35,493 bases of DNA from Dehalococcoidia bacterium. GTDB lineage: Bacteria; Chloroflexota; Dehalococcoidia; GIF9; AB-539-J10. Of this stretch, positions 1 through 17,573 are shown piece by piece (position 1 is the first letter of the stretch; each line of letters begins with the position of its first letter). The notes beneath the pieces were generated by a model. That model had not been told where the DNA came from. It was given only the letters and a program-made list of their open reading frames with translations, and did not search any database. The DNA lies in assembly GCA_003556385.1 (NCBI GenBank), contig PWRA01000169.1:1-35493 (forward strand), read 5' to 3'. Both the position numbers and the translations under genes were made by a program.

Positions 1-594
1 CTAGATCTCGAACTCGTCCTTGGTCTCCACAGCTGCGAGGCTATCCCTTAACCCCTCGGCTGCTTGCAGGGCTTCCCTGAAGGCCAGGACGTTCTTCTCC
101 ACCTTGGACGGAGGGAGTCTTTTTCCCATGACTGCAACCAGCGAATCGGCAGTTGCGATGGGGCAGAGCGATGCCACCGCGCCAAGAGCTGCCATGTTGA
201 CGGCTCTTATCTCACCTGCGTTTCGGGCTATCTGCTCGAAAGACACCCGTGCCACCCTGTTCCAGGGCACCCATCCCACCCGGCTCGAGTCCACGATAAC
301 CAGCGCTCCTTCTTTCAGGGCCCGCAGGTTCTTGACGCACGCCTCCTGCGTCAGGGCCAAAAGGAGATCCAGCTGTACCGCCTGGGGATAATCGATCTCC
401 GTATCGCTTACCACCACCTCCGAGACCGAATTGCCTCCCCGGGCTTCCGGACCGTAGTTCTGAGTCTGGGCCACGTACTTACCGTCAAGAATGGCGGCCT
501 CCGCCAGTATTATCCCGGCCAGGATTATACCCTGGCCCCCGGACCCGGCTATCCTGACCTCATACCTTGAGTTTTTCTCTGGCGAGTTTCCCAT
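1..594 (-). CDS. korC: 2-oxoacid:ferredoxin oxidoreductase, gamma subunit (KorC)
   Basis: 197-residue gamma subunit of a ferredoxin-dependent 2-oxoacid oxidoreductase, last gene of korDABC. The N-terminus carries the glycine-rich GSGGQGI motif followed by QTQNYGPEARGG, both hallmarks of the KorC/PorG gamma fold. The family catalyses CoA-dependent oxidative decarboxylation of a 2-oxoacid, or the reverse reductive carboxylation, in the cytoplasm with ferredoxin as electron carrier. The start codon lies inside the end of korB (35-base overlap), implying translational coupling. The TAG stop occupies bases 1-3, so the gene is complete but anything downstream is outside the window. A 2-oxoglutarate preference is inferred from the delta-alpha-beta-gamma order; a branched-chain 2-oxoacid enzyme (Vor) cannot be excluded. 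Confidence 0.93.
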   Translation of the reverse strand: MGNSPEKNSRYEVRIAGSGGQGIILAGIILAEAAILDGKYVAQTQNYGPEARGGNSVSEVVVSDTEIDYPQAVQLDLLLALTQEACVKNLRALKEGALVIVDSSRVGWVPWNRVARVSFEQIARNAGEIRAVNMAALGAVASLCPIATADSLVAVMGKRLPPSKVEKNVLAFREALQAAEGLRDSLAAVETKDEFEI

Positions 595-1387
595 ATTCCT
601 TATCGTAGATCGGTCTCTCCCGGTCGACGAGGACGCCGATGACCACCTTTCCGGCCAGTTCGGTCTCGTTCATCTCCGCGGCTTTTTCCACAGTTATGGC
701 ATTGTCCCGCTGCCATGCCATCATCTCGACGGGTGACGCCAGTCCCATCCAGCGTCCCGAGTAGGTCACACACTGAGCAAGCACTTCGACCATGGAGAAC
801 CCATCCTTCTTAAGAGACTTTTCTATCAGCCGCTCCAGTTGAGGCGTATGATAGACGGTGGTTCTGCCCACAAAGACCGCCCCGGCTGCTTCTACTAGCC
901 GGGATATGTCAAAGGGAGCCTCGAGGTTTCCGTATGGGGCCGATGTGGTCTTAAGGCCATAGGGAGTGGTGGGGGAGGATTGGCCGCCGGTCATGCCGTA
1001 GACCTGATTGTTGATCACGAAACTAACAATCTCCACGTTGCGCCTGGCAGCATGGATGAGGTGATTGCCTCCGATGGACGCGGCATCGCCGTCACCCATT
1101 ATGGTGATCACCTTCAGACGCGGGTTCGCCAGCTTCACTCCGGTGGCGAAGGTGAGCGCCCTGCCATGGGTGGCATGCAGCGTATTGAAATCGACATACA
1201 CGGGAAGCCGGCTCGAACACCCAATGCCGGATACCAGCACCACCTCGTCCTTGCTGTATCCGATCTTGTCGATGACCCTGATCAGCGCCTGCATGAAAAT
1301 CCCTATGCCGCAGCCGGCGCACCAGATGTGTGGAAATCTCTTGCTGGAGCGAAGATACTTGTGGACGAAGTGGCTTGATTCCTTCAC
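560..1387 (-). CDS. korB: 2-oxoacid:ferredoxin oxidoreductase, beta subunit (KorB)
   Basis: 275-residue TPP-binding beta subunit. Visible motifs are WCAGCGIG near residues 22-29 (Cys pair of the [4Fe-4S] site), GIGCSS, and the TPP/Mg signature GDGDAASIGGNH followed by NNQVYGMTGGQ. Length fits KorB. Its ATG overlaps the TGA stop of korA by four bases (ATGA), and its end overlaps korC, so the complex is made from one tightly packed message. The family transfers electrons from the hydroxyethyl-TPP-type intermediate to ferredoxin. Substrate assignment to 2-oxoglutarate is inference from overall similarity and operon order. Confidence 0.95.
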   Translation of the reverse strand: MKESSHFVHKYLRSSKRFPHIWCAGCGIGIFMQALIRVIDKIGYSKDEVVLVSGIGCSSRLPVYVDFNTLHATHGRALTFATGVKLANPRLKVITIMGDGDAASIGGNHLIHAARRNVEIVSFVINNQVYGMTGGQSSPTTPYGLKTTSAPYGNLEAPFDISRLVEAAGAVFVGRTTVYHTPQLERLIEKSLKKDGFSMVEVLAQCVTYSGRWMGLASPVEMMAWQRDNAITVEKAAEMNETELAGKVVIGVLVDRERPIYDKEYGKLAREKLKV

Positions 1388-2529
1388 CGATAGACCTCCT
1401 CGATCTTGCTCAGGATCTCCCCGGGGGTTATGGCTGTTCCATCTATCTTGTTCAGGGTCGCTATCTCACAGCTGCCCTGGTTGACCCTCTTCACCTCACG
1501 GGAGATCTGCCCGACGTTCATCTCCGGCACCAGTATCACCCGGGAACTCTCTGTGATCCCGGTGATGGTGCGGCGCATGAACGGCCAGAGTATCTTGAGC
1601 TTCACAAGCCCGACCTTAAGACCCTTCTGGCGGGCCTCCTTCACGGCCTGCAGTCCGGCGCGGGCGACGCAACCGTAGGCGATCACCGTCATTTCCGCGT
1701 CCTCAGTGAAATAGGAATCGCACCACTGCAGGCGTTCGAAGTCGTTGGATATCTTGGAGAAAAGCCGCCGCATCAAGGCCTGGACTTCATCCGGCCGGGT
1801 AGTGGGATAGCCGCGGACATCGTGATGCAGGCCGGTCACGTGGTAGCGATACCCTTCTCCAAAGGCCGGCATTGGGGGCACACCGGTGCCGGGATCGCCA
1901 TAGGGAACATGCCATTCAGGGGGTACGGTCGGCCGGGGCCTGTTCTCGATCTCAAGCTCTCCTTGAGGCGGGAGCGACACCCCTTCTCTCATGTGGCCTA
2001 CTATCTCATCAGCGAGTAAGATGGTCGGGGTACGGTATCTTTCAGCAAGGTTAAAGGCCTGGATAGTCAGTTCGTAGAACTCATAGACCGAAGATGGAGC
2101 GAGGACTATGATCGAATGGTCGCCGTGTGTTCCCCAGCGGGCCTGCATAACGTCGCCCTGGGCTGCCTGGGTGGGAAGACCTGTGCTCGGCCCGGCCCGC
2201 ATGACATCGACGACAACGCAGGGGACTTCCGCCATGCAGGCATAGCCGATATGCTCCTGCATGAGCGAGAACCCCGGCCCGCTGGTCGCGGTCATGCTCT
2301 TCGAACCGGCCAGCGAGGCCCCGATGATGGCCCCCATGCTGGCGATCTCGTCTTCCATCTGGATACAGACTCCGCCGGCCTCCGGCAACTGCCGGGCCAT
2401 GTATTCCATGATCTCAGTCGCTGGAGTGATGGGATAGCCGGCATAGAAACGGCAACCGGCGGCGATAGCGCCCCTTACGCAGGCTTCGTTACCCTGCAGC
2501 AGAACCTGACTTTGTTTTCTGCTTTTCAT
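1384..2529 (-). CDS. korA: 2-oxoacid:ferredoxin oxidoreductase, alpha subunit (KorA)
   Basis: About 381 residues. Domain I begins LLQGNEACVRGAIAAGC and contains AGYPITPATEIMEY, the conserved pyrimidine-domain motif of alpha subunits, then MEDEIASMGAIIGASLAG and TATSGPGFSLMQE. The C-terminal half holds the transketolase-C-like domain. I chose the ATG at 2529 over an in-frame TTG at 2541; even so the gene starts 41 bases inside korD. No good Shine-Dalgarno precedes it, which fits translational coupling to korD. Together with KorB it forms the catalytic core that binds the 2-oxoacid and CoA. Confidence 0.93.
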   Translation of the reverse strand: MKSRKQSQVLLQGNEACVRGAIAAGCRFYAGYPITPATEIMEYMARQLPEAGGVCIQMEDEIASMGAIIGASLAGSKSMTATSGPGFSLMQEHIGYACMAEVPCVVVDVMRAGPSTGLPTQAAQGDVMQARWGTHGDHSIIVLAPSSVYEFYELTIQAFNLAERYRTPTILLADEIVGHMREGVSLPPQGELEIENRPRPTVPPEWHVPYGDPGTGVPPMPAFGEGYRYHVTGLHHDVRGYPTTRPDEVQALMRRLFSKISNDFERLQWCDSYFTEDAEMTVIAYGCVARAGLQAVKEARQKGLKVGLVKLKILWPFMRRTITGITESSRVILVPEMNVGQISREVKRVNQGSCEIATLNKIDGTAITPGEILSKIEEVYR

Positions 2530-2713
2530 CCTTGGTGACAACTATGGCGAAATCCGGGCATCTCATCTCGCACAACCTGCAGCCCGTGCAACTCTCGAGG
2601 TCTGTTATGGTGGGGACTGAGTCTTTGTCGGCTACAAGCGTCTCCTTGGGGCAGAAGGCGATGCATATACCACATTTCTTGCACCAGCCTCGATAGATGT
2701 CAACCCTTGTCAT
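2489..2713 (-). CDS. korD: 2-oxoacid:ferredoxin oxidoreductase, delta (ferredoxin) subunit KorD
   Basis: 74-residue dicluster ferredoxin, first gene of the operon. Two CxxCxxCxxxC-type motifs are visible: CKKCGICIAFCPK and CTGCRLCEMRCPD, each expected to bind one [4Fe-4S] cluster. It passes electrons from the TPP site to external ferredoxin. The ATG at 2713 lies eight bases after a TATAAT hexamer with no convincing Shine-Dalgarno, suggesting a leaderless or almost leaderless transcript. The C-terminal tail (KDEKQKTKSGSAAG) overlaps the start of korA. Confidence 0.93.
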   Translation of the reverse strand: MTRVDIYRGWCKKCGICIAFCPKETLVADKDSVPTITDLESCTGCRLCEMRCPDFAIVVTKDEKQKTKSGSAAG

Positions 2714-2721
2714 GCGGCCCT

Positions 2722-2727
2722 ATTATA
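2722..2727 (-). promoter_or_regulatory. -10 box of the kor operon
   Basis: On the minus strand TATAAT is followed by eight bases and then the korD ATG. The -35 region (around GGCCAA at 17 bases) is poor. The preceding bases, TGGTG, are shared with the -10 region of the corrinoid activator gene. Expected start of transcription falls at or within a few bases of the ATG. Confidence 0.45.
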
Positions 2728-2792
2728 CACCATTCTGAACAATTTGGCCTGTCCGGAATCTCCGCGCACAGCATATAGGCCCGTGGCCGTTC

Positions 2793-2836
2793 CGGTATAC
2801 CGCTTCACGGTACCCGGGGTTGTCCGGAAACCGTGA
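2793..2836. repeat. Inverted repeats between the corrinoid activator gene and kor operon
   Basis: Seven-base arms TCACGGT (2805-2811) and ACCGTGA (2830-2836) form a hairpin just past the stop of the activator gene. Next to it is the 10-base palindrome CGGTATACCG (2793-2802). There is no U-tract on either side, so a standard intrinsic terminator is not supported; a Rho-dependent end, RNA-stabilising hairpin or operator for kor are alternatives. The 9-mer TGTCCGGAA also occurs twice here (2750 and 2821). The remainder of the 128-base gap shows only the kor promoter. Confidence 0.4.
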
Positions 2837-2841
2837 GATAG

Positions 2842-4809
2842 TTACCAGGGATTGTCCTCATGAAAAGTCATGTGATCAATGAAATACTGGTTGAAGTCAA
2901 AGCGCCACGATAGCTCGATGTGTTCGATGAACCCGGTGAGCTCGAACGCTGTCTGCCAGTAGTGCTTCGCCAGCAGGACCATAGCTGCTCCGGTACTCGC
3001 GGCGTTACCCAGGGATCTGACGATCTCCGAATCCACCCGCGGCATCAGTCCCGTGCGCATGGCGCTGTGATGGTCGATGTAGTTCCCCAGCGCCCCGGCC
3101 AGATATACACGGTCGATATCCGACACCCCGACGCCAAGGTGGTCCATCAAGGTCTTAATACCGGCGGCAATCGCTGCTTTGGCGAGCTGGAACTCTCGAA
3201 CGTCTTTCTGAGTAAGATAGATCGGTCGTTCGCGTGCGCTCTCCTCGGCGGGGACGACCAGAAAGCTACTGAGTCCGGAGCGGGTAACCACTCTTGAGTT
3301 CAACTCGCGGCAGTCTGCTCGCGGTGAAGGACTAATCAAGCCGTTTTCATCGATGATGCCGCACTCCAGGAGCACGGCGACCAGGTCTACCAGCCCGCTT
3401 CCACAAATGCCTTCCGGTTTGACGTTGCCGATGACCCGGTAACGCAGGTTGCCGTCTTCCAGGGCTACACCCTCGATGGCTCCTGCGCGGCCGTTCATGC
3501 CGTGCGTGATCCTGGCCCCTTCCAGTGCCGGACCGGCCGCCGCCGAGCATGTCAGCAATCGTTTGCCATTGCCCAGGAATATCTCCCCGTTGGTGCCCAT
3601 GTCCAGTCCCAATATGGTCTCATCCTGCTGTTCGGCAACCCCGGAAGCGATGATAAAGCTGAGTAGGTCGCCCCCGATATAGCCTGACTTCATGGGCATG
3701 GTATACAGGATAGCGGCCGGATGCAGGTGTAGACCCACGTCGGCCGCATCGAGAACCAGCCCGTCGGTCACGACCGGAGAGAATGGCGCCTGCGCAATGC
3801 CGGTGGGGGACAGGCCGAGGAGAAGATGCTGCATGGTGGTGTTGCCCGCGGCAACGGCAACGAAGATATCCTCCGGATTGATGGTGGCCGTTTCCAGCAG
3901 GTTTGCTGTGATCTGGTTCAGGTCCTTGAGTATGAGTGACTGCATTGTTTTCAGGCCCCTCGGGTGTTCCTGGCAGTACTGGAGACGGCTGATCAGGTCT
4001 GAGCCGTATCTCTTCTGGCTGTTCAGGCACGAGCCGACCGCGACCTCACTTCCGTCCGCCAGGCTGAACAGCTTGCCGACCAGTGTGCTGGTTCCGAGGT
4101 CGAAGACCAGTCCGTATCTGCGGTCGATCTGCTCCTCATCCTGCCAGTCCAGGAGGCAATGGTCGTGTAGGACTGCCACGCCGCGGAAACTGCCTTCCTC
4201 GAGATCGTCACGTAACGTGCGAAGGCAGTAGAGCGATGCCTGCAAGTCCCGGTACTCCGAGCCCAGTCCCAGCTTTATCATGTCCAGGTCTGAGAGACCC
4301 TCATGTTGAAGGCTGAACGGCAAAGTGACCAGCTGCTTGCTTATCAGGGGCTCAAGCTGGTCCTGCGGTATATACCTTTCGCTCAGAACGTGACTGGTGG
4401 TGAGGATGCTGAAGTATTCGGCGGCGGCCTCTTCTTCCTCGCTGATGGAGATCGCAAGGTCCCGGTTTATCCGGGTCCGACAGGCAAGGCGTATACCTTG
4501 CTCCAGTTCGTCCTCGTCCAGGAGTGCTCTTTCCGCGTCGGATGGCGCCTCTATTTCGGACAGCACCTTCACCTTGCACTTGCCACACCTCCCCAGTCCG
4601 TAGCAGTCGCCTTCTAGCTCTACGTCCGTGGACTGCAGTGTCTCCCAGATAGTCTCCCCGAGGGCCACATGGAACCACCTATCGTCCGGCAGGACGTGCA
4701 GCCAGACATCACTGGTGTGGCGCTTTCTCTTGCCCGGTCTTCTGGGGCGCCGACGGCTCATGCTCATGGGCGCAGCCGGGGGGCCATCCTGCTTTGAGGT
4801 ACGAAGCAT
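2842..4809 (-). CDS. [2Fe-2S]/ASKHA corrinoid activator (RACo/RamA-like, DUF4445 family)
   Basis: 655-residue protein of the reductive activator of corrinoid proteins type. Order seen: a basic N-terminal tail (residues 18-30), a plant-type [2Fe-2S] ferredoxin domain with Cys69, Cys75, Cys78 and Cys110 (CYGLGRCGKC ... LACRT), a linker, then a large ASKHA-type ATPase region with FDLGTSTLVGKL, AGNTTMQHLLLG, GLDMGTNGEI, and a C-terminal AGALGNYIDHHSA motif. In CoFeSP-dependent systems such proteins use ATP to return inactive Co(II) corrinoid to Co(I). Here it sits after the MttB/corrinoid genes, so the nearby corrinoid protein is a likely client. It has its own -10 box and probably a leaderless ATG. 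It could instead serve a CODH/ACS CoFeSP encoded elsewhere. Confidence 0.88.
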   Translation of the reverse strand: MLRTSKQDGPPAAPMSMSRRRPRRPGKRKRHTSDVWLHVLPDDRWFHVALGETIWETLQSTDVELEGDCYGLGRCGKCKVKVLSEIEAPSDAERALLDEDELEQGIRLACRTRINRDLAISISEEEEAAAEYFSILTTSHVLSERYIPQDQLEPLISKQLVTLPFSLQHEGLSDLDMIKLGLGSEYRDLQASLYCLRTLRDDLEEGSFRGVAVLHDHCLLDWQDEEQIDRRYGLVFDLGTSTLVGKLFSLADGSEVAVGSCLNSQKRYGSDLISRLQYCQEHPRGLKTMQSLILKDLNQITANLLETATINPEDIFVAVAAGNTTMQHLLLGLSPTGIAQAPFSPVVTDGLVLDAADVGLHLHPAAILYTMPMKSGYIGGDLLSFIIASGVAEQQDETILGLDMGTNGEIFLGNGKRLLTCSAAAGPALEGARITHGMNGRAGAIEGVALEDGNLRYRVIGNVKPEGICGSGLVDLVAVLLECGIIDENGLISPSPRADCRELNSRVVTRSGLSSFLVVPAEESARERPIYLTQKDVREFQLAKAAIAAGIKTLMDHLGVGVSDIDRVYLAGALGNYIDHHSAMRTGLMPRVDSEIVRSLGNAASTGAAMVLLAKHYWQTAFELTGFIEHIELSWRFDFNQYFIDHMTFHEDNPW

Positions 4810-4815
4810 AGTCTA

Positions 4816-4821
4816 AATATA
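4816..4821 (-). promoter_or_regulatory. -10 box of the corrinoid activator gene
   Basis: Minus-strand TATATT ends six bases before the ATG at 4809; the context TTTGGTGTATATT resembles that of korD (AATGGTGTATAAT). No Shine-Dalgarno is present, so a leaderless message is the simplest reading. No clear -35 box. Confidence 0.4.
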
Positions 4822-4890
4822 CACCAAACTGCGTGTGTCGGGAATGTCTGACGGCGTCGGTCGTGCCCGCACACATCCTCTTCTACTGCC

Positions 4891-5487
4891 CTAGAGGAGA
4901 GCGGTCAGCATTCTCTCCAGGTACGAGTAATCGACGTCACCTACGTCAAGCGACAGCCCCAGGAACTCCGACACCTCGTCGGCCCGGGGCATCAGGTCGG
5001 GGTCTGATGGTTGTCGTAAGTAAAGCAATCTGCGGTACTGGCCGAAACAATATCTCTTCATCTCCTCATCCCTGAGTTCGAGGGGTTCAACACAGTATTC
5101 CTCGAAGTTGAGCAGGAAGTTTCTCTCAACGAAATAGGTACCGGCCATTTCCCTGATGAGTTCCTGGAACCGCCCTTCGCCGAGCAGCATCTCATAGCAG
5201 TAGTGCCCAGGTACCCTGTATACGCTGTGTCGCCGGCAGAATTCATCGATGTCGGGGAAACACTCTCCGTAGACGCATATTATCCGTTCACCCTTCCGCC
5301 TGGCGGCGGCAATCGCTTTCTTAAGGCGTTTCTTCAGCTCCTGCGGGTACAGATGAAGGTGCGACGGCAGGTACGTGAAACGCAGGTAGGGATACCTGTG
5401 CTCCAGTGCAAGGTCGTCGAAAGCGGGTTTGAAGACCGAACACGCGATGACACGCGTAATGCTTTGTGGCGGATCGGATATCGTCAT
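4891..5487 (-). CDS. DUF1638 protein of the methyltransferase cluster
   Basis: 198-residue cytoplasmic protein matching the DUF1638 pattern: N-terminal VIACSVF, LPSHLHLYPQELKKRLKKAI, a central VYGECFPDIDEFC, then VPGHYCYEMLLGEGRF and a GTYFVERNF segment. Function is unknown. Conserved-looking Cys and His residues (in ACS, GEC, EFC, GHYC) could bind a metal or corrinoid, but that is a guess. Its ATG directly abuts the TGA of the upstream mttB-like gene, so it is co-translated with the methyltransferases, and family members are known near corrinoid methyltransferase genes. This points to a role in methyl transfer, cofactor handling or substrate activation rather than housekeeping. Confidence 0.8.
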   Translation of the reverse strand: MTISDPPQSITRVIACSVFKPAFDDLALEHRYPYLRFTYLPSHLHLYPQELKKRLKKAIAAARRKGERIICVYGECFPDIDEFCRRHSVYRVPGHYCYEMLLGEGRFQELIREMAGTYFVERNFLLNFEEYCVEPLELRDEEMKRYCFGQYRRLLYLRQPSDPDLMPRADEVSEFLGLSLDVGDVDYSYLERMLTALL

Positions 5488-6942
5488 TCAAATGCTGTAT
5501 ATGCCGGGGTTGGTTCTCGCTATCTCGGCAGTGAGGTCGAGGTCAAGAAGCCCTTCCGTGTTCTCCCTCAGGATGCTCCGCACCACGTCGCTGGCCCGGC
5601 TCAGCATGTTGGGACGGCCTCTTTCCTCCCAGACATCGAAATTGTGCCTCACACTCAATTCGGGATAGAAGAACTCCGTCATCATGTGCTCGACGGTATG
5701 GTCTTCGGCGATGTAGTTGCCGCCGGGGCCCACCTTCTCGATCACATCGAAGGCCAGGGTGTCCTCAGTCACCTTTATGCCTGCCAGCATCCTGTGAATT
5801 ATGCCGATGATCTCGTTATCGATGACGAACTGCTCGTAGGAAATCGAGTTCCCCGAGTCGAGTATTCCGGCAGCCAGGCGGACGCAGTCGGCTCCCGCCA
5901 TGGCGACTGTCAGACTGGATATGCTCTTCTCAACGCCTGCCTGGATGTCGGGCCTCTTCGCCTCCGTGATTCCCCCGGAGGCGTAAACAGGCAGTTTGTA
6001 GTGCTTGCCTAGCTGCACTGTGGCGGCATTCATAATGGCCATCTCCACTGAGCCGAGCGCCAGTTCCATTCTGCGCAGATCCATGGTCATCGGGACGGCA
6101 CTGTAGATTACCCTGGCGCCCGGGGCCAGTATCTGGGCTATGGCGATCCCGGCCAGCGCTTCGGCATGCATCTGGGCGAGCGTCCCGGCCAGGGTAGCCG
6201 GCGCGGTGGCCCCCGAGATAGGAGCGGGCGCGCAGGTGACGGGAATACCGTGGGCGGCGCAGAACTCGAGCACGTTCAGCGTGTTCATCTCGATCGTGAG
6301 CGGGCTGACCGGGTTCGTGATCACCGAGACGAAGGGCTTCTCTCTAAGTTTCTCTTCTCCACCCGCGATCAGACTGGCCAGTCTGTGCATTTGCCTGGCG
6401 CCTTCTACGTCACCGCAACCTCCCATCACATGTTTCGCGGTACGGTTGAAGGCATGGTAGAAATCGTTCAGATGGTAGTTCCGCGGGGGCATGTCGTGAA
6501 CCTCGCAGGCGATAACGTAGAAACGGATGTGGTCCAGGCGCTCGACTAGTGTGGCGGTGTTCGCCACGTCCCTGAGCATGGTGAGACGGTAACCGCCTGT
6601 TTTCATATCGAGGATACGGAACACGCGTCCGCCGTTGGCGAAGTAGACGCCGCCCTCTCCCAGTTGCAGGTCGTTCTTGCCATCTCTGGAATAAAGGGTG
6701 AAACGGGAGGGGGCGCGAGTAAGGACCTTGTCGAGGAGGTCGCCGTCGAACCGCACTCTCTGTTCGTCGCAGTCCACCCGAGCCCCGGCCTTCCTCAGTA
6801 TGTCGAGGTAAGTGCTGTCCAGGATTCTCACGCCGACGCATTCCAGTATACGGCGTCCGGTCCGGTCGATCTGGGCTATGTCGGAGCGTGTCGGCGGTCT
6901 GTAATGCGGCATACCTGATCCCATATCGGAACTCACCTTCAC
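5488..6942 (-). CDS. MttB-family (non-pyrrolysine) methyltransferase, copy 1
   Basis: 484-residue member of the trimethylamine methyltransferase MttB superfamily (COG5598-like). The frame is open throughout, with no in-frame amber codon, so it is the pyrrolysine-free type whose characterised members demethylate quaternary amines such as glycine betaine. Visible segments include GDLLDKVLTRAPSRFTLYSRD, GGRVFRILDMKTGGYR, PVSPLTIEMNTLNVLEF, and a C-terminal DHTVEHMMTEFFYPELSVR. Start GTG at 6942 overlaps the upstream stop as GTGA; an ATG at 6924 preceded by AAGGTGAG is an alternative. It should pass a methyl group to the corrinoid protein encoded two genes upstream. The substrate cannot be told from sequence. 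Confidence 0.9.
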   Translation of the reverse strand: MKVSSDMGSGMPHYRPPTRSDIAQIDRTGRRILECVGVRILDSTYLDILRKAGARVDCDEQRVRFDGDLLDKVLTRAPSRFTLYSRDGKNDLQLGEGGVYFANGGRVFRILDMKTGGYRLTMLRDVANTATLVERLDHIRFYVIACEVHDMPPRNYHLNDFYHAFNRTAKHVMGGCGDVEGARQMHRLASLIAGGEEKLREKPFVSVITNPVSPLTIEMNTLNVLEFCAAHGIPVTCAPAPISGATAPATLAGTLAQMHAEALAGIAIAQILAPGARVIYSAVPMTMDLRRMELALGSVEMAIMNAATVQLGKHYKLPVYASGGITEAKRPDIQAGVEKSISSLTVAMAGADCVRLAAGILDSGNSISYEQFVIDNEIIGIIHRMLAGIKVTEDTLAFDVIEKVGPGGNYIAEDHTVEHMMTEFFYPELSVRHNFDVWEERGRPNMLSRASDVVRSILRENTEGLLDLDLTAEIARTNPGIYSI

Positions 6943-8387
6943 CCGGCCTTGACGATTCGGTCGATTTCTGCCAGCACTCCATCGGGCTTGGCCGCCACCT
7001 GATGCTCGGAGAGTATTCTCCTGGCTTCGGTGTTGCAGGCCCGGTAGAGGTCGGCGGCCCCGGCCTCGTTCCAGGAATCGTAGCGGGAGCGGTCCAGAAG
7101 CCGCGGCAGGAACTGCGCTTTCATGAAGTGCTCGAACGTATGGTCATCCAGGAGGAAGATCGAACCAGGTCCGCCGCCGGCTACCCTCTGTATTGCGTCG
7201 AGCGCCAGCGTTTCTTGGTTGACCGGGATCCCGCGGGTGAAGAAGCGGCTCATTGCCACCAGCTCGTCGGCCATCGTCACCATCTCAAGCGAAGAAGTGT
7301 TGCCGTATTCCAGAAAGCCTACGTCATGAATCAGGTTGGCCCTGGAGAGCAGGGCGGTGACTATGGAGAACATGGCCTCGGCACCTGCCTGTGCGTCCAT
7401 GACCTTGGCGTCGGAGGCCCCGGCGAAGGCCCATATAGGGAGACCGTAGATTTCGTCACGCATATCGGCGAGCGCCGCCTGGGTGAGACTCCACTCGGGG
7501 CAGCCGTACGAAACGACGGTCGACTTCATATCCAGGACGCTGCAATTTGGTCCGAAAAGGAAAGGGGCCCCCTTTCCGGCCAACTGGTGTACAGTTAGTC
7601 CCACCAGGTTCTCGGCAATCCCTATCGCCATTGCTCCGGCAAGCGTGACGGGTGCGCCACCTCCGGCATTGGAACCGGAGGGAAGGCAAATGGGCACTCT
7701 ATGCTCCGCACAGAAGATCAGTTTCTCCATTACGTTCTGGGGGAAGCGCAGCGGACTGATGGCCTCAGAGTAGTTGAGCAAGAACGGCTTGCGCTGCAGG
7801 TTTTCCTCTCCTGATGCCACCTGACAGGCGATGTCGTGTATCCTGGCGATGTCGTTGCCGCTGTCGGCGATGAATACGATCGGCTTACTGGAGTTTCTGA
7901 CCATCTCGGCAAAGACGTAAACGTAGATGGATTCCACAGGGACGTCATCGGGGTTGGCCATGGACATGGCAAAGCTCATGTTCTCCAGTCCGTCGACCAG
8001 CCTGGCAAAATTTGCTACGTCCTTAAGGACGGTCCGACGACGCTCGCCACTCTCCAGGTCCAGTGTGAATGTGGCGTCGGATCCGGTTCCGTAGTAAGCG
8101 TTGCCGTTCGTGAGGCACATCGCTTCATTGCCCTGCTGGTCGTACAGGTCGATCTGCCGGGGGGCTGATTCGAGAGCCTTCTCCACCACGGAGGCGGGTA
8201 GCTTGACCCAGCCGCCCTCGCTGGATTCAGCCCCGGCGTCAAGCAGCATCTCCAGCGCCCCGCGATGCTCCATCCTGACGCCGGTCTTTCCCAGGATCTC
8301 CAGCGCCGCCTCGTGAATTGCCCACGCCTGGTCACGGTTCAGCACCTTCAGTCGAGGTTCGAATGTGTCTGCCTTCAATGCCTTCAT
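6939..8387 (-). CDS. MttB-family (non-pyrrolysine) methyltransferase, copy 2
   Basis: 482-residue paralogue of the next gene, again with no internal amber codon. Family features include GGWVKLPASVVEKALESAPRQ, NAYYGTGSDATFTLD, NYSEAISPLRFPQNVMEKL and the C-terminal DDHTFEHFMKAQFLPRLLDR, followed by YDSWNEAGA. A strong TAAGGAGG precedes the ATG by five bases. It lies 23 bases after the corrinoid protein gene and overlaps copy 1 by four bases, so both methyltransferases are made together. The two copies clearly differ in sequence, so they may have different methylated substrates or act sequentially on one substrate. Confidence 0.92.
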   Translation of the reverse strand: MKALKADTFEPRLKVLNRDQAWAIHEAALEILGKTGVRMEHRGALEMLLDAGAESSEGGWVKLPASVVEKALESAPRQIDLYDQQGNEAMCLTNGNAYYGTGSDATFTLDLESGERRRTVLKDVANFARLVDGLENMSFAMSMANPDDVPVESIYVYVFAEMVRNSSKPIVFIADSGNDIARIHDIACQVASGEENLQRKPFLLNYSEAISPLRFPQNVMEKLIFCAEHRVPICLPSGSNAGGGAPVTLAGAMAIGIAENLVGLTVHQLAGKGAPFLFGPNCSVLDMKSTVVSYGCPEWSLTQAALADMRDEIYGLPIWAFAGASDAKVMDAQAGAEAMFSIVTALLSRANLIHDVGFLEYGNTSSLEMVTMADELVAMSRFFTRGIPVNQETLALDAIQRVAGGGPGSIFLLDDHTFEHFMKAQFLPRLLDRSRYDSWNEAGAADLYRACNTEARRILSEHQVAAKPDGVLAEIDRIVKAG

Positions 8388-8410
8388 GGTTACCTCCTTA
8401 GCCCCGGCGC

Positions 8411-9061
8411 CTACTCCTCTGAGCGGTCGATGCCGAGCAGTTCCTTGGCTCTGGTGACGGCGGATCCTGCGTCCGATCCGTAGGCGTCTGCGCCGATCTT
8501 CTGAGCATACCTCTCAGTGACCGGTGCTCCTCCGATCATGATCTTGACCTTCTTCCGGAGGCCCGCCTTCTGCAGGGCCTCGATGGTGTCGGCCATGGCA
8601 GGCATGGTCGTGGAAAGCAATGCCGACATACCCACGATATCCGGTTCGACCTCTCTCACCTTCTCAACGAATATCTCCGGCGCAACGTCTACGCCCAGGT
8701 CCGTGATCGTGAATCCGGCACCCTCCAGCATCATGGATACGAGGTTCTTGCCGATATCATGCAGGTCGCCCCTGACGGTGCCCATCAACACCTGTCCCTT
8801 GGAAACGACGTCTCCTTCCTGAAAGTACGGCTTGAGGAGCTTTGTGCATTCCTGCATCGTCTTGGCAGAACGCAACATCTGGGGCACAAAGATCAGGCCC
8901 TTGGAATACCGATCGCCCACCTCGTTCATAGTAGCGATCAGCCCCTGGTTGAGGATGTCCTGCGCACTGATGCCTGCCTCCAGGGCGCTCTTCGTCTCGG
9001 CCACCGCCTTGTTGATGTCTCCTTTGCTAATAGCTTCCGAAAGCGCTTTGAAATCGTTCAT
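8411..9061 (-). CDS. Methyltransferase corrinoid protein (MtbC/MttC type)
   Basis: 216-residue B12-binding protein. The N-terminal helical cap (about residues 1-80) precedes a Rossmann-like cobalamin domain with the DxHxxG motif in GTVRGDLHDIGKNLV (His101 in this numbering, the expected lower cobalt ligand), then GMSALLSTTMPAM and a MIGGAPVTERYA segment. It shuttles methyl groups between the MttB-like enzymes and the methyl-THF methyltransferase. I chose the ATG at 9061, six bases after AGGAGG, over an in-frame TTG at 9067. It needs reductive reactivation, fitting the ASKHA activator in the cluster. Confidence 0.95.
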   Translation of the reverse strand: MNDFKALSEAISKGDINKAVAETKSALEAGISAQDILNQGLIATMNEVGDRYSKGLIFVPQMLRSAKTMQECTKLLKPYFQEGDVVSKGQVLMGTVRGDLHDIGKNLVSMMLEGAGFTITDLGVDVAPEIFVEKVREVEPDIVGMSALLSTTMPAMADTIEALQKAGLRKKVKIMIGGAPVTERYAQKIGADAYGSDAGSAVTRAKELLGIDRSEE

Positions 9062-9152
9062 ATCCAACCTCCTTCAGGCTTGATCCACTGTTCATCCGCC
9101 ACACGCATCGGGCCAGTGTTTTCTCAAGAGTGTCTTCAACAAAGTCCTGTTT

Positions 9153-9170
9153 GCCGGATTATTATCCGGC
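9153..9170. repeat. Intercistronic hairpin at the end of the MeTr gene
   Basis: GCCGGAT and ATCCGGC form a perfect seven-base stem with a four-base loop; the TAA stop of the methyl-THF methyltransferase gene lies at the loop. No U-tract follows on the minus strand, so it is more likely an RNA-processing or stabilising hairpin than a terminator. It lies in the longest gap (about 100 bases) inside this operon and could set the ratio of corrinoid protein to methyltransferase. Confidence 0.5.
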
Positions 9171-9959
9171 TATGCGACCACTCTGATAGGCATCTATGAA
9201 ATTGCCGCAGTACTCGTCCCGTCCAAGAAGGAGCTCCACAGAGAGCAGAGTGGCCATGAGTTGTCTGTCCGTCGGGTCCAGGATGACCGCCGAAAGACCG
9301 TAGGCCATACAGAGAGCCAGGAAACTGCGGTTGATCAAACGCCGCTCGGGCAGACCGAAGGAGATGTTCGAAAGGCCGCAGATTGCATTCACGCCCGGGA
9401 AATCCTCCATTATCCTTCTGATGGCGCCGAGGGCGGCGACCCCCATGTCAGTATTCACAGAAACGGGCTGTATCAGCGGGTCTACATAGATCTTCTCTCG
9501 AGGAACGCCTTCGGCAGTAAGCGTCTCGACCAGTTCCGACCCGACCTGGACCCTTTCTTCGGTGGTCACGGGCATCGACGTCCTCGCCATACAGAGGGCG
9601 ACTACCGAACAGGGTTGAGAGGTGATCACGGGCAACAGTGAGTCGAGTCGCTCCTGCTCTAGCGAGATAGAGTTGACCATCGGTTCACCCCTGTGAAGCT
9701 TCATCGCCTCGGCCAAGGCTACGGGGTTGGGACTATCCAGACTCAAGGGCAGAGGCATCGCCTGTTGCACCGTCTCTGTAAGCCAGCACAGGCAGTCCAC
9801 TTCCTCGTCGACGAAAGTGCCGGCGTTGATGTCGATGTAGTGGGCTCCGGCCTCCGCCTGCTCGCGAGCCATCGCGGCTATGGCCGCGGCATCCCGTCTC
9901 CTGACCGCGTCTTCCACGTTCTTCCGGCTCGTGTTAATCTTCTCACCGACTATGACCAT
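9162..9959 (-). CDS. Methyl-THF:corrinoid protein methyltransferase (pterin-binding, AcsE/MtgA-like)
   Basis: 265-residue TIM-barrel pterin-binding enzyme. It begins MVIVGEKINTSRKNV and contains GAHYIDINAGTF, DPLIQPVSVN and the family signature CGLSNISFGLPERRLINR. Such enzymes move a methyl group between methyl-tetrahydrofolate and the cobalt of a corrinoid protein. First gene of the methyltransferase operon, so the likely flow is methylated amine, MttB, corrinoid, this enzyme, methyl-THF; the reverse direction is chemically possible. It could also serve the CoFeSP of an ACS complex as AcsE, but its position next to MttB genes favours a catabolic MtgA-like role. A GGGCAGAGG Shine-Dalgarno-like stretch precedes the ATG. 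Confidence 0.92.
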   Translation of the reverse strand: MVIVGEKINTSRKNVEDAVRRRDAAAIAAMAREQAEAGAHYIDINAGTFVDEEVDCLCWLTETVQQAMPLPLSLDSPNPVALAEAMKLHRGEPMVNSISLEQERLDSLLPVITSQPCSVVALCMARTSMPVTTEERVQVGSELVETLTAEGVPREKIYVDPLIQPVSVNTDMGVAALGAIRRIMEDFPGVNAICGLSNISFGLPERRLINRSFLALCMAYGLSAVILDPTDRQLMATLLSVELLLGRDEYCGNFIDAYQSGRIAG

Positions 9960-10165: not shown

Positions 10166-10195
10166 TTGACTTGCCCTCTCGCCGCGGGTTAGAAT
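10166..10195 (+). promoter_or_regulatory. Promoter of cooC-like gene
   Basis: TTGACT (10166-10171), 18-base spacer, TAGAAT (10190-10195). The ATG at 10210 is 14 bases past the -10, so the leader is about seven bases and there is no Shine-Dalgarno. The -35 overlaps an in-frame TTG at 10171, which argues against that codon as the start. Divergent from the methyltransferase promoter; the -35 boxes are about 75 bases apart. Confidence 0.65.
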
Positions 10196-10209
10196 TCTGC
10201 CGTCCGGGC

Positions 10210-10977
10210 ATGAAAGTCGCTGTAAGTGGCAAAGGAGGCGTCGGCAAGACGATGCTAGTCTCCCTCCTTTCTACCCTATTCAGCGAGTCCGGATACTCCG
10301 TTCTCGCTATAGACGCCGATCCCAACGCGACTCTGGCCGGCGCGCTCGGCTTCACCGAACCCGAGAAGATAACCCCCATATCTGAGATGGGAGACCTGAT
10401 TGAAGAGAGGACGGGTGCGCGTCCGGGGCAGGCCGCGCCCTACTTCAAGCTTAATCCGAAGGTGGATGATATACCGGAAAAGTACTGGGTCGATGCTAAC
10501 GGGGTCAAGCTAATGGTGATGGGCGGGCTCAAGCGGGGCGGCAGCGGGTGCTACTGCCCGGAGAATGCCCTGGTTGAGGCCCTGGTCGCTCATCTACTAC
10601 TGAACAGAGATGAGGTCGTGATCATGGATATGGAGGCGGGGGTGGAGCATTTCGGGCGGGCGACGGCGAAGGCGGTGGACCAGTTGGTGGTGGTGGTAGA
10701 GCCCGGCAGGGGAAGCATAGAGACGGCGCGGCGGATACGAGAACTGGCAAAGGATATCGGCCTAGAACGCATCGGGGTGGTGGGCAACAAGATTCGTAGC
10801 GAAGAGGACAGGCAGTTTCTGCTCGAAGCATTACCCGATTTTGAGTTCCTGGGCTTCATTCCCTACGACCAGACGATAATAGACGCCGGGCTGGGCAGGT
10901 TTCCTCTCAGTCAGGCCAGCGCAGCAGTGGTCGGTGTGGTTAAGGACATAGCGGCGCGGCTCGGTGCCGGCCGATAG
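10210..10977 (+). CDS. cooC: CooC-like nickel-insertion ATPase for CODH
   Basis: 255 residues from the ATG at 10210. The deviant Walker A of the SIMIBI class is at residues 7-14 (GKGGVGKT), followed by AIDADPNATL. A CxC motif, Cys114 and Cys116 in GSGCYCPENA, matches the metal-binding pair of CooC dimers, and MDMEAGVEHFGRAT is the switch region. CooC hydrolyses ATP while delivering Ni to carbon monoxide dehydrogenase. No CODH gene is in the window, so this gene is indirect evidence that CODH/ACS exists elsewhere in the genome. It leads the folD-fhs gene row; the gap to folD is 47 bases with a fresh Shine-Dalgarno. An ArsA-like or generic MinD role is less likely because of the CxC. Confidence 0.88.
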   Translation: MKVAVSGKGGVGKTMLVSLLSTLFSESGYSVLAIDADPNATLAGALGFTEPEKITPISEMGDLIEERTGARPGQAAPYFKLNPKVDDIPEKYWVDANGVKLMVMGGLKRGGSGCYCPENALVEALVAHLLLNRDEVVIMDMEAGVEHFGRATAKAVDQLVVVVEPGRGSIETARRIRELAKDIGLERIGVVGNKIRSEEDRQFLLEALPDFEFLGFIPYDQTIIDAGLGRFPLSQASAAVVGVVKDIAARLGAGR

Positions 10978-11024: not shown

Positions 11025-11933
11025 ATGACGGCAAAAATCATATCGGGGACGGAGGTGGCGAAGGAGATCCGGGCTGAGCTCACAGAGCGGGTGTCAAAAC
11101 TCAAGGATCGGGGCGTAACGCCCGGACTGGTCATGATCCGGGTGGGCGAAGACCCTGCGTCGGTTTCCTACGTGTCCGGCAAGGAGAAGGCGGCGGTGGA
11201 GATCGGCGTATGGTCGGAAACCATCGTTCTGCCCGAGAGCGCCTCGGAGCAGGAACTCATCTCCAGGGTGGAGGAGATGAACAGGGCCGGGCATGTCGAC
11301 GGCATACTCGTTCAGCTGCCGTTGCCCAAACAGATCGACGGGAACAAGGTACTGAATCTCATCGATCCCGCCAAGGATGTGGATGGATTCCATCCCGTCA
11401 ATGTGGGCAAGATGCTGATCGGCGATCCGTTCTTCATGCCCTGCACGCCGCACGGAGCGTTAGAACTGATGATCCGCAGCGGCAATCCCCCCGAAGGCAA
11501 GCACGTGGTCATATGCGGCCGCAGCAACATTGTAGGTAAGCCTCTCATGGCTATGCTGGTGCAGAAGAGCAAACGTGCCAATGCAACTGTGACGGTTGTC
11601 CACACAGGGACTAAGAACATGGCTGAGATCACCAGACAGGGCGATATTCTGGTCGCCGCGATGGGCGCTCCGGAAGTGATCAAACCGGACATGGTGAAGG
11701 AGGGGGCTGTGGTTATCGACGTAGGTGTAAACCGCGTGGGCTGGAAGCAGAGCAAGAAGGACCCCAGCAAGCAGGTCGCCGACCTGCGGGGCGATGTGGA
11801 GTTCGAGACGGTCAAGGAGAAAGCCAGCGCCATTACCCCGGTGCCGGGAGGAGTTGGCCCCATGACTATCACTATGCTCATGGTCAACACCGTAGTAGCG
11901 GCCGAGCGCAGGGCCGATCGTACGGGAAAATAG
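11025..11933 (+). CDS. folD: Methylene-THF dehydrogenase / methenyl-THF cyclohydrolase
   Basis: 302-residue bifunctional FolD. Visible motifs: VGEDPASVSYVSGKEKAA with the catalytic lysine region, VDGILVQLPLPKQID, PAKDVDGFHPVN, CTPHGALELM, the Rossmann segment ICGRSNIVGKPLMAML, and a C-terminal TPVPGGVGPMTI. It interconverts methylene-, methenyl- and formyl-THF with NAD(P) in the cytoplasm. A near-perfect AAAGGAGG precedes the ATG. It lies directly before fhs, the classical pairing in the methyl branch of the Wood-Ljungdahl pathway. An insertion-like KQSKKDPSKQV near residue 245 is somewhat longer than in many FolD proteins. Confidence 0.97.
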   Translation: MTAKIISGTEVAKEIRAELTERVSKLKDRGVTPGLVMIRVGEDPASVSYVSGKEKAAVEIGVWSETIVLPESASEQELISRVEEMNRAGHVDGILVQLPLPKQIDGNKVLNLIDPAKDVDGFHPVNVGKMLIGDPFFMPCTPHGALELMIRSGNPPEGKHVVICGRSNIVGKPLMAMLVQKSKRANATVTVVHTGTKNMAEITRQGDILVAAMGAPEVIKPDMVKEGAVVIDVGVNRVGWKQSKKDPSKQVADLRGDVEFETVKEKASAITPVPGGVGPMTITMLMVNTVVAAERRADRTGK

Positions 11934-11954
11934 CGAACGAATAAGGAGGTTATG

Positions 11955-13718
11955 ATGGCTTATGACGCAACAAAACTGAAGGACTGGCAGATCTCGGAAG
12001 CTGCCGAACAGAACATGCCGATGCCGGATGAGTGGCGGGAGAAGCTCAACCTGCAGAAGGATGAGGTCATTCCCTATGGCAGGCTGTGCAAAGTCGACTT
12101 CATGAAGGTGGTCGACCGTCTCAAGGACAGGCCGGACGGCAAGTATATCGAGGTGACGGCCATTACTCCCACACCCCTGGGAGAGGGCAAGACGACGACC
12201 AGTATGGGCCTCCTGGAAGGCATGGGCAAGCGTGGCTGGAATGTGGGTGGCTGTATCCGGCAGCCGTCGGGTGGCCCGACCATGAACATCAAGGGAACCG
12301 CTGCCGGGGGCGGCAACGCGTTGCTTATCCCCATGACAGAGTTCTCCATGGGTCTTACCGGAGACATAAATGACATAATGAACGCCCACAACCTGGCCAT
12401 GGTTGCGCTTACATCGAGGATGCAGCACGAGCGCAACTACAACGATGAGGAGTTGACCAAGCGCACCAGGATGCGCCGGCTGAACGTGGACCCGACAAAA
12501 GTAGAGATGGGCTGGATCATAGACTTCTGTGCGCAAAGTCTGAGGAACATCGTCATCGGCCTGGGGGGCCGCATGGACGGCTACACGATGCAGTCCAGGT
12601 TCGGTATTGCCGTCAGTTCCGAGTTGATGGCAATGCTATCCATCGTCACGGACCTCGCCGACCTGCGCAAGAGGATGGATAACATCACTGTGGCTTTCGA
12701 TAGAGACGGCAAGGCTGTCACCACCGGTGATCTGGAGGTGGGAGGCGCCATGACCGCCTGGATGGTCAACACCATCAATCCCACGCTAATGTGCACGGTA
12801 GAGTATCAGCCCTGTCTGGTACACGCCGGGCCCTTTGCCAACATCGCCGTGGGGCAGTCTTCGATCATCGGCGACCGTATAGGGCTGAAGATGTTTGACT
12901 ATCACGTTACCGAGAGCGGATTTGCCGCCGACATAGGGTTTGAGAAGTTCTGGAACGTGAAGAGCCGGCTGAGCGGTCTCAAGCCGCATGTGTCGGTATT
13001 GACGACCACTATTCGGGCCTTGAAGATGCACGGCGGCGGGCCGACGGTGGTGGCCGGCCGACCCCTGCCTGAGTCCTACACCAAGGAAGATTTGGGACTG
13101 CTTGAGAAGGGTCTTCCCAATATGCTGCATCATATCAACACGATTAGAGCATCGGGCATCAACCCCGTGGTGTGCATAAACGGCTTCCACACGGATACCA
13201 AGGACGAGATCGCTATGGTGCGGAAGGCGGCTGAGGCTGCCGGGGCACGCTGTGCACTCAGTGAACACTGGCTCAAGGGTGGTGACGGTGCGCTCGAACT
13301 CGCCGACACGGTTAAGGAAGCCTGTGAGGAAAAGAGTGAATTCAAGTTCCTCTATCCCATGGACATGAAACTGCGAGAGCGGGTCGAGAACATCGCCAGG
13401 GTCGTCTACGGGGCCGATGGAGTGTCATGGACCGCCGATGCCGAGGCCAAGGCCAAGATGCTCGAGTCCGACCCCAAGTATGACGATTACGCTACTATGA
13501 TGGTTAAGACCCATCTGAGCCTGTCGCACGATCCGAGCCTGAAGGGCGTTCCCAAGGGATGGACCCTGCCTATCCGTGATGTGTTGATCTACTCGGGGGC
13601 GAAATTCCTCTGTCCCTGCGCCGGGACGATCAGCCTGATGCCCGGGACGAGCTCGGACCCGGCCTTCAGAAGGGTGGATGTGGACACCAAGACCGGCAAG
13701 GTGGAGGGCCTTTTCTAG
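11955..13718 (+). CDS. fhs: Formate-tetrahydrofolate ligase
   Basis: About 587 residues, typical for monofunctional Fhs. The P-loop-like [14 protein letters not shown] lies near residue 70, followed by [19 protein letters not shown], and [21 protein letters not shown] around residue 280. It activates formate with ATP to 10-formyl-THF. I prefer the ATG at 11955, five bases after AAGGAGG (11943-11949), over the ATG three bases earlier, which would sit too close. It follows folD by about 20 bases. In an organism with CooC and corrinoid methyltransferases this enzyme can run either into acetogenesis or, in reverse, recover ATP during methyl oxidation. Confidence 0.97.
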
Positions 13719-17486: not shown

Positions 17487-17573
17487 GTGAGAGCGAGCGT
17501 ATATAACGCATTTTTTCACATTACAAAGCCAGTCCAGTATCCTACTTATCACTATGAAAGGAGTGAACCATGA
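17487..17573 (+). other. Possible leader peptide upstream of the subtilase
   Basis: A 28-codon frame from GTG at 17487 ends in TGA overlapping the subtilase ATG (ATGA). It holds four Tyr and two Phe codons (VYNAFFHITKPVQYPTYHYE region). The same frame could start at ATG 17376. The ribosome site before the GTG is weak and the subtilase has its own AAAGGAG, so this may be chance. Confidence 0.2.

Follow-up and report, generated by a model that had tools for sequence, protein, structure and literature searches.

Background

Glycine betaine demethylation in proteobacteria involves MtgB, MtgC and MtgD together with RamA-like and DUF1638 proteins (PMC12478193, PMC5764234). DUF1638 and DUF4445 proteins co-fit with the split methionine synthase, and in Phaeobacter inhibens methionine synthesis draws on DUF1638, RamA-like, corrinoid and pterin-binding proteins (PMC5764234); a roseobacter corrinoid protein serves both betaine demethylation and methionine synthesis (PMC12478193). 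In this study, we analysed a 35,493-nucleotide stretch (hereafter the window) of a Dehalococcoidia bacterium (GenBank assembly GCA_003556385.1, contig PWRA01000169.1), which is contig C32 of a 171-contig, 1.66-Mb metagenome-assembled genome (MAG) with a completeness of 90%, MAGs being generally incomplete. At 2842-9959 it carries six genes, hereafter module 1, for a methyl-tetrahydrofolate (methyl-THF):corrinoid protein methyltransferase (MeTr), a corrinoid protein (CoP), two MttB-superfamily proteins (MttB-A and MttB-B), a DUF1638 protein and a RACo-type reductive activator. We consider it likely that module 1 is a conserved corrinoid-dependent demethylation operon, the methyl groups of which would pass to THF and into the Wood-Ljungdahl pathway, with a substrate that is probably not glycine betaine, and which normally works alongside a second module (module 2).

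The proteobacterial betaine-demethylation cluster is the closest described parts list. Near bmt on pSymB, S. meliloti carries genes for an MttB, a cobalamin-binding protein, DUF1638, MetF, a PF00809 methyltransferase and an ASKHA protein, and on an Azoarcus plasmid the same set apart from the MttB, which the stretch lacks, lies among genes for glycine betaine transport; the window proteins share 27-42% identity with these counterparts. Common to the window and the proteobacterial cluster are an MttB-superfamily protein, a corrinoid protein, a PF00809 methyltransferase, a DUF4445/ASKHA activator, a DUF1638 protein with the same three cysteines and methyl-THF as the presumed product. The window differs in that its operon is compact and has a pair of MttBs belonging to other clades, MetF is not linked, the host is of an anaerobic Wood-Ljungdahl type and the modelled betaine pocket is not kept. 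Desulfitobacterium MtgABC likewise combines a non-pyrrolysine MttB, a corrinoid protein and methyl-THF in an anaerobe, but its MtgA is presumably MtrH-like, unlike the AcsE-like PF00809 MeTr of the window, and the MttB pocket residues differ. MtgA is reported to show no sequence identity to previously known structures (PMC7154762). Several MttB paralogues with one corrinoid protein, an activator and a THF methyltransferase are also found in Eubacterium limosum (MtpB/MtcB/MtyB-MtqC-MtqA-RamQ; PMC8604678), where the MttBs are many, whereas the window has a fixed A-B pair embedded with its partners plus DUF1638; this comparison concerns gene content.

Results

All six open reading frames are uninterrupted and lie on the minus strand (Table 1), with intergenic spacings, in transcription order from MeTr to RACo, of 94, 23, -4, 0 and 81 bp, an arrangement consistent with one operon. 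MttB-B begins at a GTG, with a 4-nt overlap between this start and the stop of MttB-A, and the called start of CoP is TTG, with an ATG two codons further in. All six proteins exceed the curated Pfam cut-offs, which bears out the row of families that a sequence-only reading of the window had listed. No riboswitch was found for the module, and promoter and terminator scans there did no better than shuffled sequence.

Table 1. Coordinates of module 1 and neighbouring genes in the window
Feature	Position	Strand	Family or basis
MeTr, AcsE-like methyl-THF:corrinoid protein methyltransferase, operon gene 1	9162..9959	-	PF00809, NF005719
CoP, corrinoid (B12-binding) protein	8411..9067	-	PF02607+PF02310
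MttB-A, non-pyrrolysine MttB-superfamily protein, separate highly conserved clade	6939..8387	-	PF06253
MttB-B, second non-pyrrolysine MttB paralogue, separate clade	5488..6942	-	PF06253
DUF1638 protein, accessory	4891..5487	-	PF07796
RACo-type ATP-dependent reductive activator of corrinoid proteins (2Fe-2S + ASKHA)	2842..4809	-	Fer2 + RACo_middle + RACo_C_ter
2-oxoacid:ferredoxin oxidoreductase alpha, beta, gamma (KorA/B/C)	1384-2541, 560-1387, 1-594	-	family searches
CooC/ParA-like ATPase, divergent from module	10171-10977	+	family searches
FolD, divergent from module	11025-11933	+	reading of translation
Fhs, divergent from module	11952-13718	+	reading of translation

MttB-A and MttB-B match PF06253 at 266 and 382 bits (cut-off 25), which places both in the MttB superfamily (PF06253/COG5598), and share about 31% identity. 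Both were placed in a tree of 115 MttBs with MtgB (9yce), S. meliloti SMc04330 (4yyc) and pyrrolysine MttB (7xcl) as references. MttB-A and MttB-B are two separate, deeply conserved, slowly evolving clades that are paired in the full operon, the former with 45 sequences and a stem length of 1.2 changes per site, the latter with 38 sequences and support 1.0. MtgB pairs with SMc04330, and neither window protein joins them or groups with pyrrolysine MttB. The betaine contacts modelled in MtgB (Y94, N199, R309, H345 and F353) come from docking (PMC6855144). The positions of Y94/N199/R309/F353 are S/E/W/G in MttB-A with no exception in 45 sequences (S103/E208/W319/G, invariant) and G/N/Y/G in MttB-B (Y in 35/38, G of the last position in 33/38), and the H345 column is gapped in MttB-A, with a conserved His adjoining the gap, and Leu in MttB-B. 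The set Y94, N199, R309 and H345 is thus kept by neither protein; the S. meliloti enzyme keeps the MtgB Y, N, R and H. The acidic and aromatic pocket of MttB-A (E208, W319) might favour a cation without an MtgB-type carboxylate contact, which is not proof of any substrate, and MttB-B may use its own invariant R106. Assignment to the pyrrolysine-free class that includes glycine betaine methyltransferase holds, but betaine as the default substrate is weak, because neither MttB groups with MtgB or keeps its modelled pocket.

Pyrrolysine MttB-MttC (7xcl, 7xcn) shares superfamily and corrinoid protein architecture with the window, where, in contrast, there is no internal stop or amber codon, both MttBs fall below the TIGR02369 cut-off of 525, and the Pyl334 column holds Ala/Ser in MttB-A and Val/Leu/Ile/Thr in MttB-B; a profile search of the assembly found no true PylS. 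Since the MttBs without pyrrolysine that have been characterised use quaternary amines (PMC8604678) and the genome lacks PylS, the tertiary amines that the sequence-only reading had allowed as substrates are unlikely, while quaternary amines stay plausible. Elsewhere in the Dehalococcoidia family of the window, true PylS (326-346 bits, cut-off 178) occurs in 5/52 genomes, two of them in its genus. On contig C54 of genome G020 (L140) a PylS match at 6570-7292 adjoins MttB-like and MtbB-like open reading frames (830-2371 and 2454-3851, minus strand) with in-frame TAG near codons 346-349, and pyrrolysine use in Dehalococcoidia is likely from these features. Plasmid records searched for close relatives of MttB-A and MttB-B held none, the best reaching about 31-35%. 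A fifth MttB of the genome (L092:7518-9014, minus strand, contig C98) is solitary, adjoins an amidohydrolase-like gene and belongs to a distant clade.

Each of the partners carries the marks of its family. MeTr matches PF00809 at 78 bits and NF005719 at 323 bits (cut-off 259), and its best solved relatives are 4o0q and 2yci. In Moorella numbering we take the folate-site residues of the AcsE/MeTr type to be D75, N96, D160 and N199; alignment with 2yci and 4o0q shows a PF00809 barrel with the equivalent residues, D75, N96, D160 and N198, all invariant in 31 orthologues. CoP, resembling 1y80 and MttC (7xcn), has the helical cap domain (PF02607+PF02310) and the DxHxxG motif, of which D101 and H103 are invariant in 32 orthologues. 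The activator combines a 2Fe-2S domain (Fer2, 37 bits) with an ASKHA domain (PF14574, 260 bits; PF17651, 172 bits), matches the RACo structure 3zyy at E 3e-90, and keeps the four iron-sulfur cysteines C69, C75, C78 and C110 invariant in orthologues, as in RACo/RamA-like activators. The DUF1638 protein (PF07796, 99 bits) has invariant Cys16, Cys76 and Cys97 and a near-invariant His45 in an alignment of 42, and the three-Cys set can also be read in proteobacterial DUF1638 proteins. Its AlphaFold2 model is confident (pLDDT 93), but since Foldseek and profile searches gave no meaningful match and no similar solved fold, it is left without an assigned function.

A scan of named genomes, which favours close relatives because it used exact 8-residue patterns, recovered 51 loci with MttB-A relatives of 63-82% identity in Dehalococcoidia and many Desulfobacterota, and a fragment in one Spirochaetaceae MAG. 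Where an A+B locus is not cut by a contig end, the order MeTr-CoP-A-B-DUF1638-RACo is almost always kept, and since it recurs in nearly all uncut relatives of two phyla, the gene row is more than chance. Mean identity over 18 six-gene loci is 75% for A, 71% for MeTr, 70% for CoP, 66% for B, 60% for RACo and 52% for DUF1638; in these loci pairwise distances between the six genes correlate (r 0.75-0.89), and a tree of the concatenated operon splits Chloroflexota from Desulfobacterota with support 96/95, so that the operon is inherited as a block whose genes co-evolve. In the single-gene tree of MttB-A the two phyla intermingle (5 changes), and repeated inter-phylum transfer of MttB-A was considered and dropped, as the concatenated operon puts them on two sides of one branch. 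The Myxococcota labels in that tree are probably an NCBI filing of unclassified Deltaproteobacteria. Within Dehalococcoidia module 1 is patchy, occurring in 16/294 sampled genomes with DUF1638 as marker.

A solitary MttB-A lineage was also observed in Desulfobacterota (L059, L067, L069, L070, L072, L075, L079 and L085), with no adjoining MttB-B and often with a MarR regulator and an S-adenosylmethionine (SAM)-dependent methyltransferase upstream. In Desulfamplus the SAM-methyltransferase is accompanied by SAM synthetase (MAT) and S-adenosylhomocysteine hydrolase (SahH) downstream. For the SAM-methyltransferases c1 and c5 no informative PDB relative was found.

Many loci carry module 2 beside module 1. 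It comprises a PF02965 MetH-activation-like protein, MttB-D, MeTr2, MttB-C, CoP2, sometimes a SAM-methyltransferase, and an asparagine-synthetase-like (AsnB-like) protein, so that its activator is of the MetH-activation type as against the ATP-type RACo of module 1. The genome of the window has module 2 on contig C87, without the SAM-methyltransferase. Across the same 294 Dehalococcoidia genomes, with six family codes among carriers, MttB-C was present in 15/16 genomes with module 1 versus 23/278 without (Fisher p = 4e-14, uncorrected for relatedness), and among named genomes in 33/42 with A+B versus 0/8 with solitary MttB-A (p = 4.5e-5). Module 1 is almost nested within module-2 carriers, and these distributions suggest that it normally works alongside module 2. 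The AsnB-like protein has an intact PP-loop (SGGxDSS) and, because it starts MSG, MAG or MAS, lacks the N-terminal glutaminase Cys; it may be an amide ligase independent of glutamine. Such Cys-less proteins lie at L091:3416-4900 (minus strand) on C87 of the window's own genome and at L148:6355-7878 (minus strand). Near module 2, at L091:15858-19999 (C87), genes read as histidine ammonia-lyase, glutamate formimidoyltransferase and urocanase represent another folate-bound C1 source.

In the cultured Desulfoferrobacter suflitae DRH4 both modules lie within about 30 kb. From the module-2 end the order is MarR, PF02965-like, MttB-D, MeTr2, MttB-C, CoP2 and SAM-methyltransferase, then AsnB with Cys2, AsnB-like without Cys2, MAT and SahH, followed by TrkH/TrkA (K+ uptake) on the other strand and by module 1. 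This layout, together with the Desulfamplus neighbours, hints at a substrate from methylated-solute metabolism but does not show it.

The genome encodes CODH, ACS, the subunits of the corrinoid iron-sulfur protein (CoFeSP) and AcsE, all on contig C84, and two MetF with MetV-like partners. Methyl-THF has an outlet, because CODH/ACS with its own AcsE, MetF, FolD and Fhs are encoded, and the sequence-only proposal that the module feeds the methyl branch is reasonable on the same grounds. Of four PF00809 proteins in the genome, one on C89 is DHPS-like, a label given by score alone, and the others are AcsE (C84), MeTr2 (C87) and the MeTr of the window, which is free to serve the module because a separate AcsE stands in the CODH/ACS cluster. 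A role of this MeTr in the CODH/ACS complex was dropped once AcsE was found on C84. RACo is the only copy in the 90%-complete assembly and so may serve CoFeSP too; the activator that the sequence-only reading called the module's own may be a shared one.

FolD and Fhs are divergent from the module, as that reading had stated, with the CooC/ParA-like ATPase gene intervening, and none of the other loci showed CooC-like, folD or fhs genes next to the module, which puts them outside the conserved operon. The KorA/B/C genes start 300 bp downstream of RACo, and loci L068 and L078 likewise have oxidoreductase subunit genes immediately after RACo. They are probably neighbours rather than module members and a possible source of reduced ferredoxin; in Dehalococcoidia 2-oxoacid:ferredoxin oxidoreductase genes recur beside RACo in the window (1-2541), L068, L078 and L055. 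Further along the window, a gene at 17570-19900 (plus strand) was read as encoding a subtilisin-like protease that is secreted and whose C-terminal part has two near-identical repeats, each of ~70 residues (TYTITATAGEGGSIDPSGD...).

Discussion

Our results support a pyrrolysine-free MttB/corrinoid/methyl-THF module with a reductive activator, as the sequence-only reading had proposed from the genes; the two fixed MttB clades, the order held across phyla, the near-obligate module 2 and the match to the proteobacterial betaine parts list go beyond it. The substrate that MttB-A and MttB-B would each bind would be a methylated compound, probably a quaternary one (possibly sulfonium), from which one methyl group would go to Co(I) of the common corrinoid protein; MeTr would pass this group on to THF, and the methyl-THF would then enter the Wood-Ljungdahl pathway of the genome. 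Corrinoid that has slipped to Co(II) would be re-reduced by RACo with ATP and a low-potential donor, with DUF1638 as an accessory protein, perhaps of re-activation. We infer these catalytic steps, their catabolic direction, the substrate class and the role of DUF1638 from what was observed directly, namely gene content, motifs, conserved order, co-evolution, co-occurrence with module 2 and the presence of the pathway genes. Two points weigh against the proposed operon function: the substrate argument uses docking-derived pocket positions only (PMC6855144), of which H345 aligns ambiguously in MttB-A; and no transporter was consistently linked to the module in the loci compared.

An ordinary MtgB-type glycine betaine demethylase, in which one or both MttBs make dimethylglycine, would fit a parts list equal to that of the proteobacterial betaine clusters and the substrates of non-pyrrolysine MttBs, which commonly act on betaines (PMC8604678), and an OpuAC/OsmF-type betaine ABC transporter lies close to the operon, though outside it, in L052 (2690-5591) and L065 (upstream part). 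However, neither MttB groups with MtgB/SMc04330 and the modelled contact residues are changed in both, which makes this reading unlikely, and the substrate is probably not glycine betaine. More broadly, modules 1 and 2 suggest a four-MttB system for a methylated, perhaps osmolyte-type, compound. A bolder version, which we regard as speculative and of low though not negligible probability, is a single system in which MttB A-D work with two corrinoid proteins, two activator types and two methyl-THF methyltransferases on a methylated amide- or betaine-type compound not yet described. This compound would probably be an osmolyte that some sulfate reducers make by means of the linked SAM-methyltransferase and a Cys-less AsnB-like ligase and that Dehalococcoidia consume. 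The corresponding SAM-linked cycle, with the two modules turning over a methylated compatible solute that some hosts would synthesise through the linked SAM-methyltransferase and amide synthetases of the AsnB-like kind, is a similarly tentative idea. It draws on the D. suflitae modules, which flank the SAM-methyltransferase, AsnB, the Cys-less AsnB-like protein, MAT, SahH and TrkAH in about 30 kb, and on several solitary MttB-A loci with a SAM-methyltransferase, joined in Desulfamplus by MAT and SahH; yet module 2 of the window's genome has no SAM-methyltransferase, none was seen in Dehalococcoidia loci, no solute is known, and SAM-recycling genes also accompany other methylation.

It is very improbable that the operon is a methyl source for methionine or other biosynthesis in the manner of the Phaeobacter split methionine synthase, although the P. 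inhibens proteins (PMC5764234) and the double role of the roseobacter corrinoid protein (PMC12478193) offer precedents: the operon genes and window neighbours gave no match to the homocysteine methyltransferase family PF02574, the genome's methionine synthase not having been searched for, and the full operon always has two MttBs and is patchily distributed, unlike an essential biosynthesis. Just as improbable is that RACo and MeTr mainly serve the Wood-Ljungdahl CoFeSP and that the proximity of the MttBs is incidental. The single RACo, near CooC, folD and fhs, would agree with such a role, but the CODH/ACS contig has its own AcsE, and in both phyla MeTr and RACo stay linked to the MttBs, whereas CooC, folD and fhs do not.

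To our knowledge, thousands of non-pyrrolysine MttBs are known, only a handful of them with known substrates, and the interest of the demethylation operon proposed here lies in its fixed A-B pair, the linked module 2 and DUF1638. It offers two sharply defined MttB clades, their full set of partners side by side and, in D. suflitae DRH4, a cultured host; DUF1638, with its invariant three-Cys set, is tied to corrinoid methyltransferase systems in anaerobes and aerobes alike. As far as we know, the substrates of sediment Dehalococcoidia are mostly unknown, and feeding on methyl groups is a possible part of their energy metabolism.

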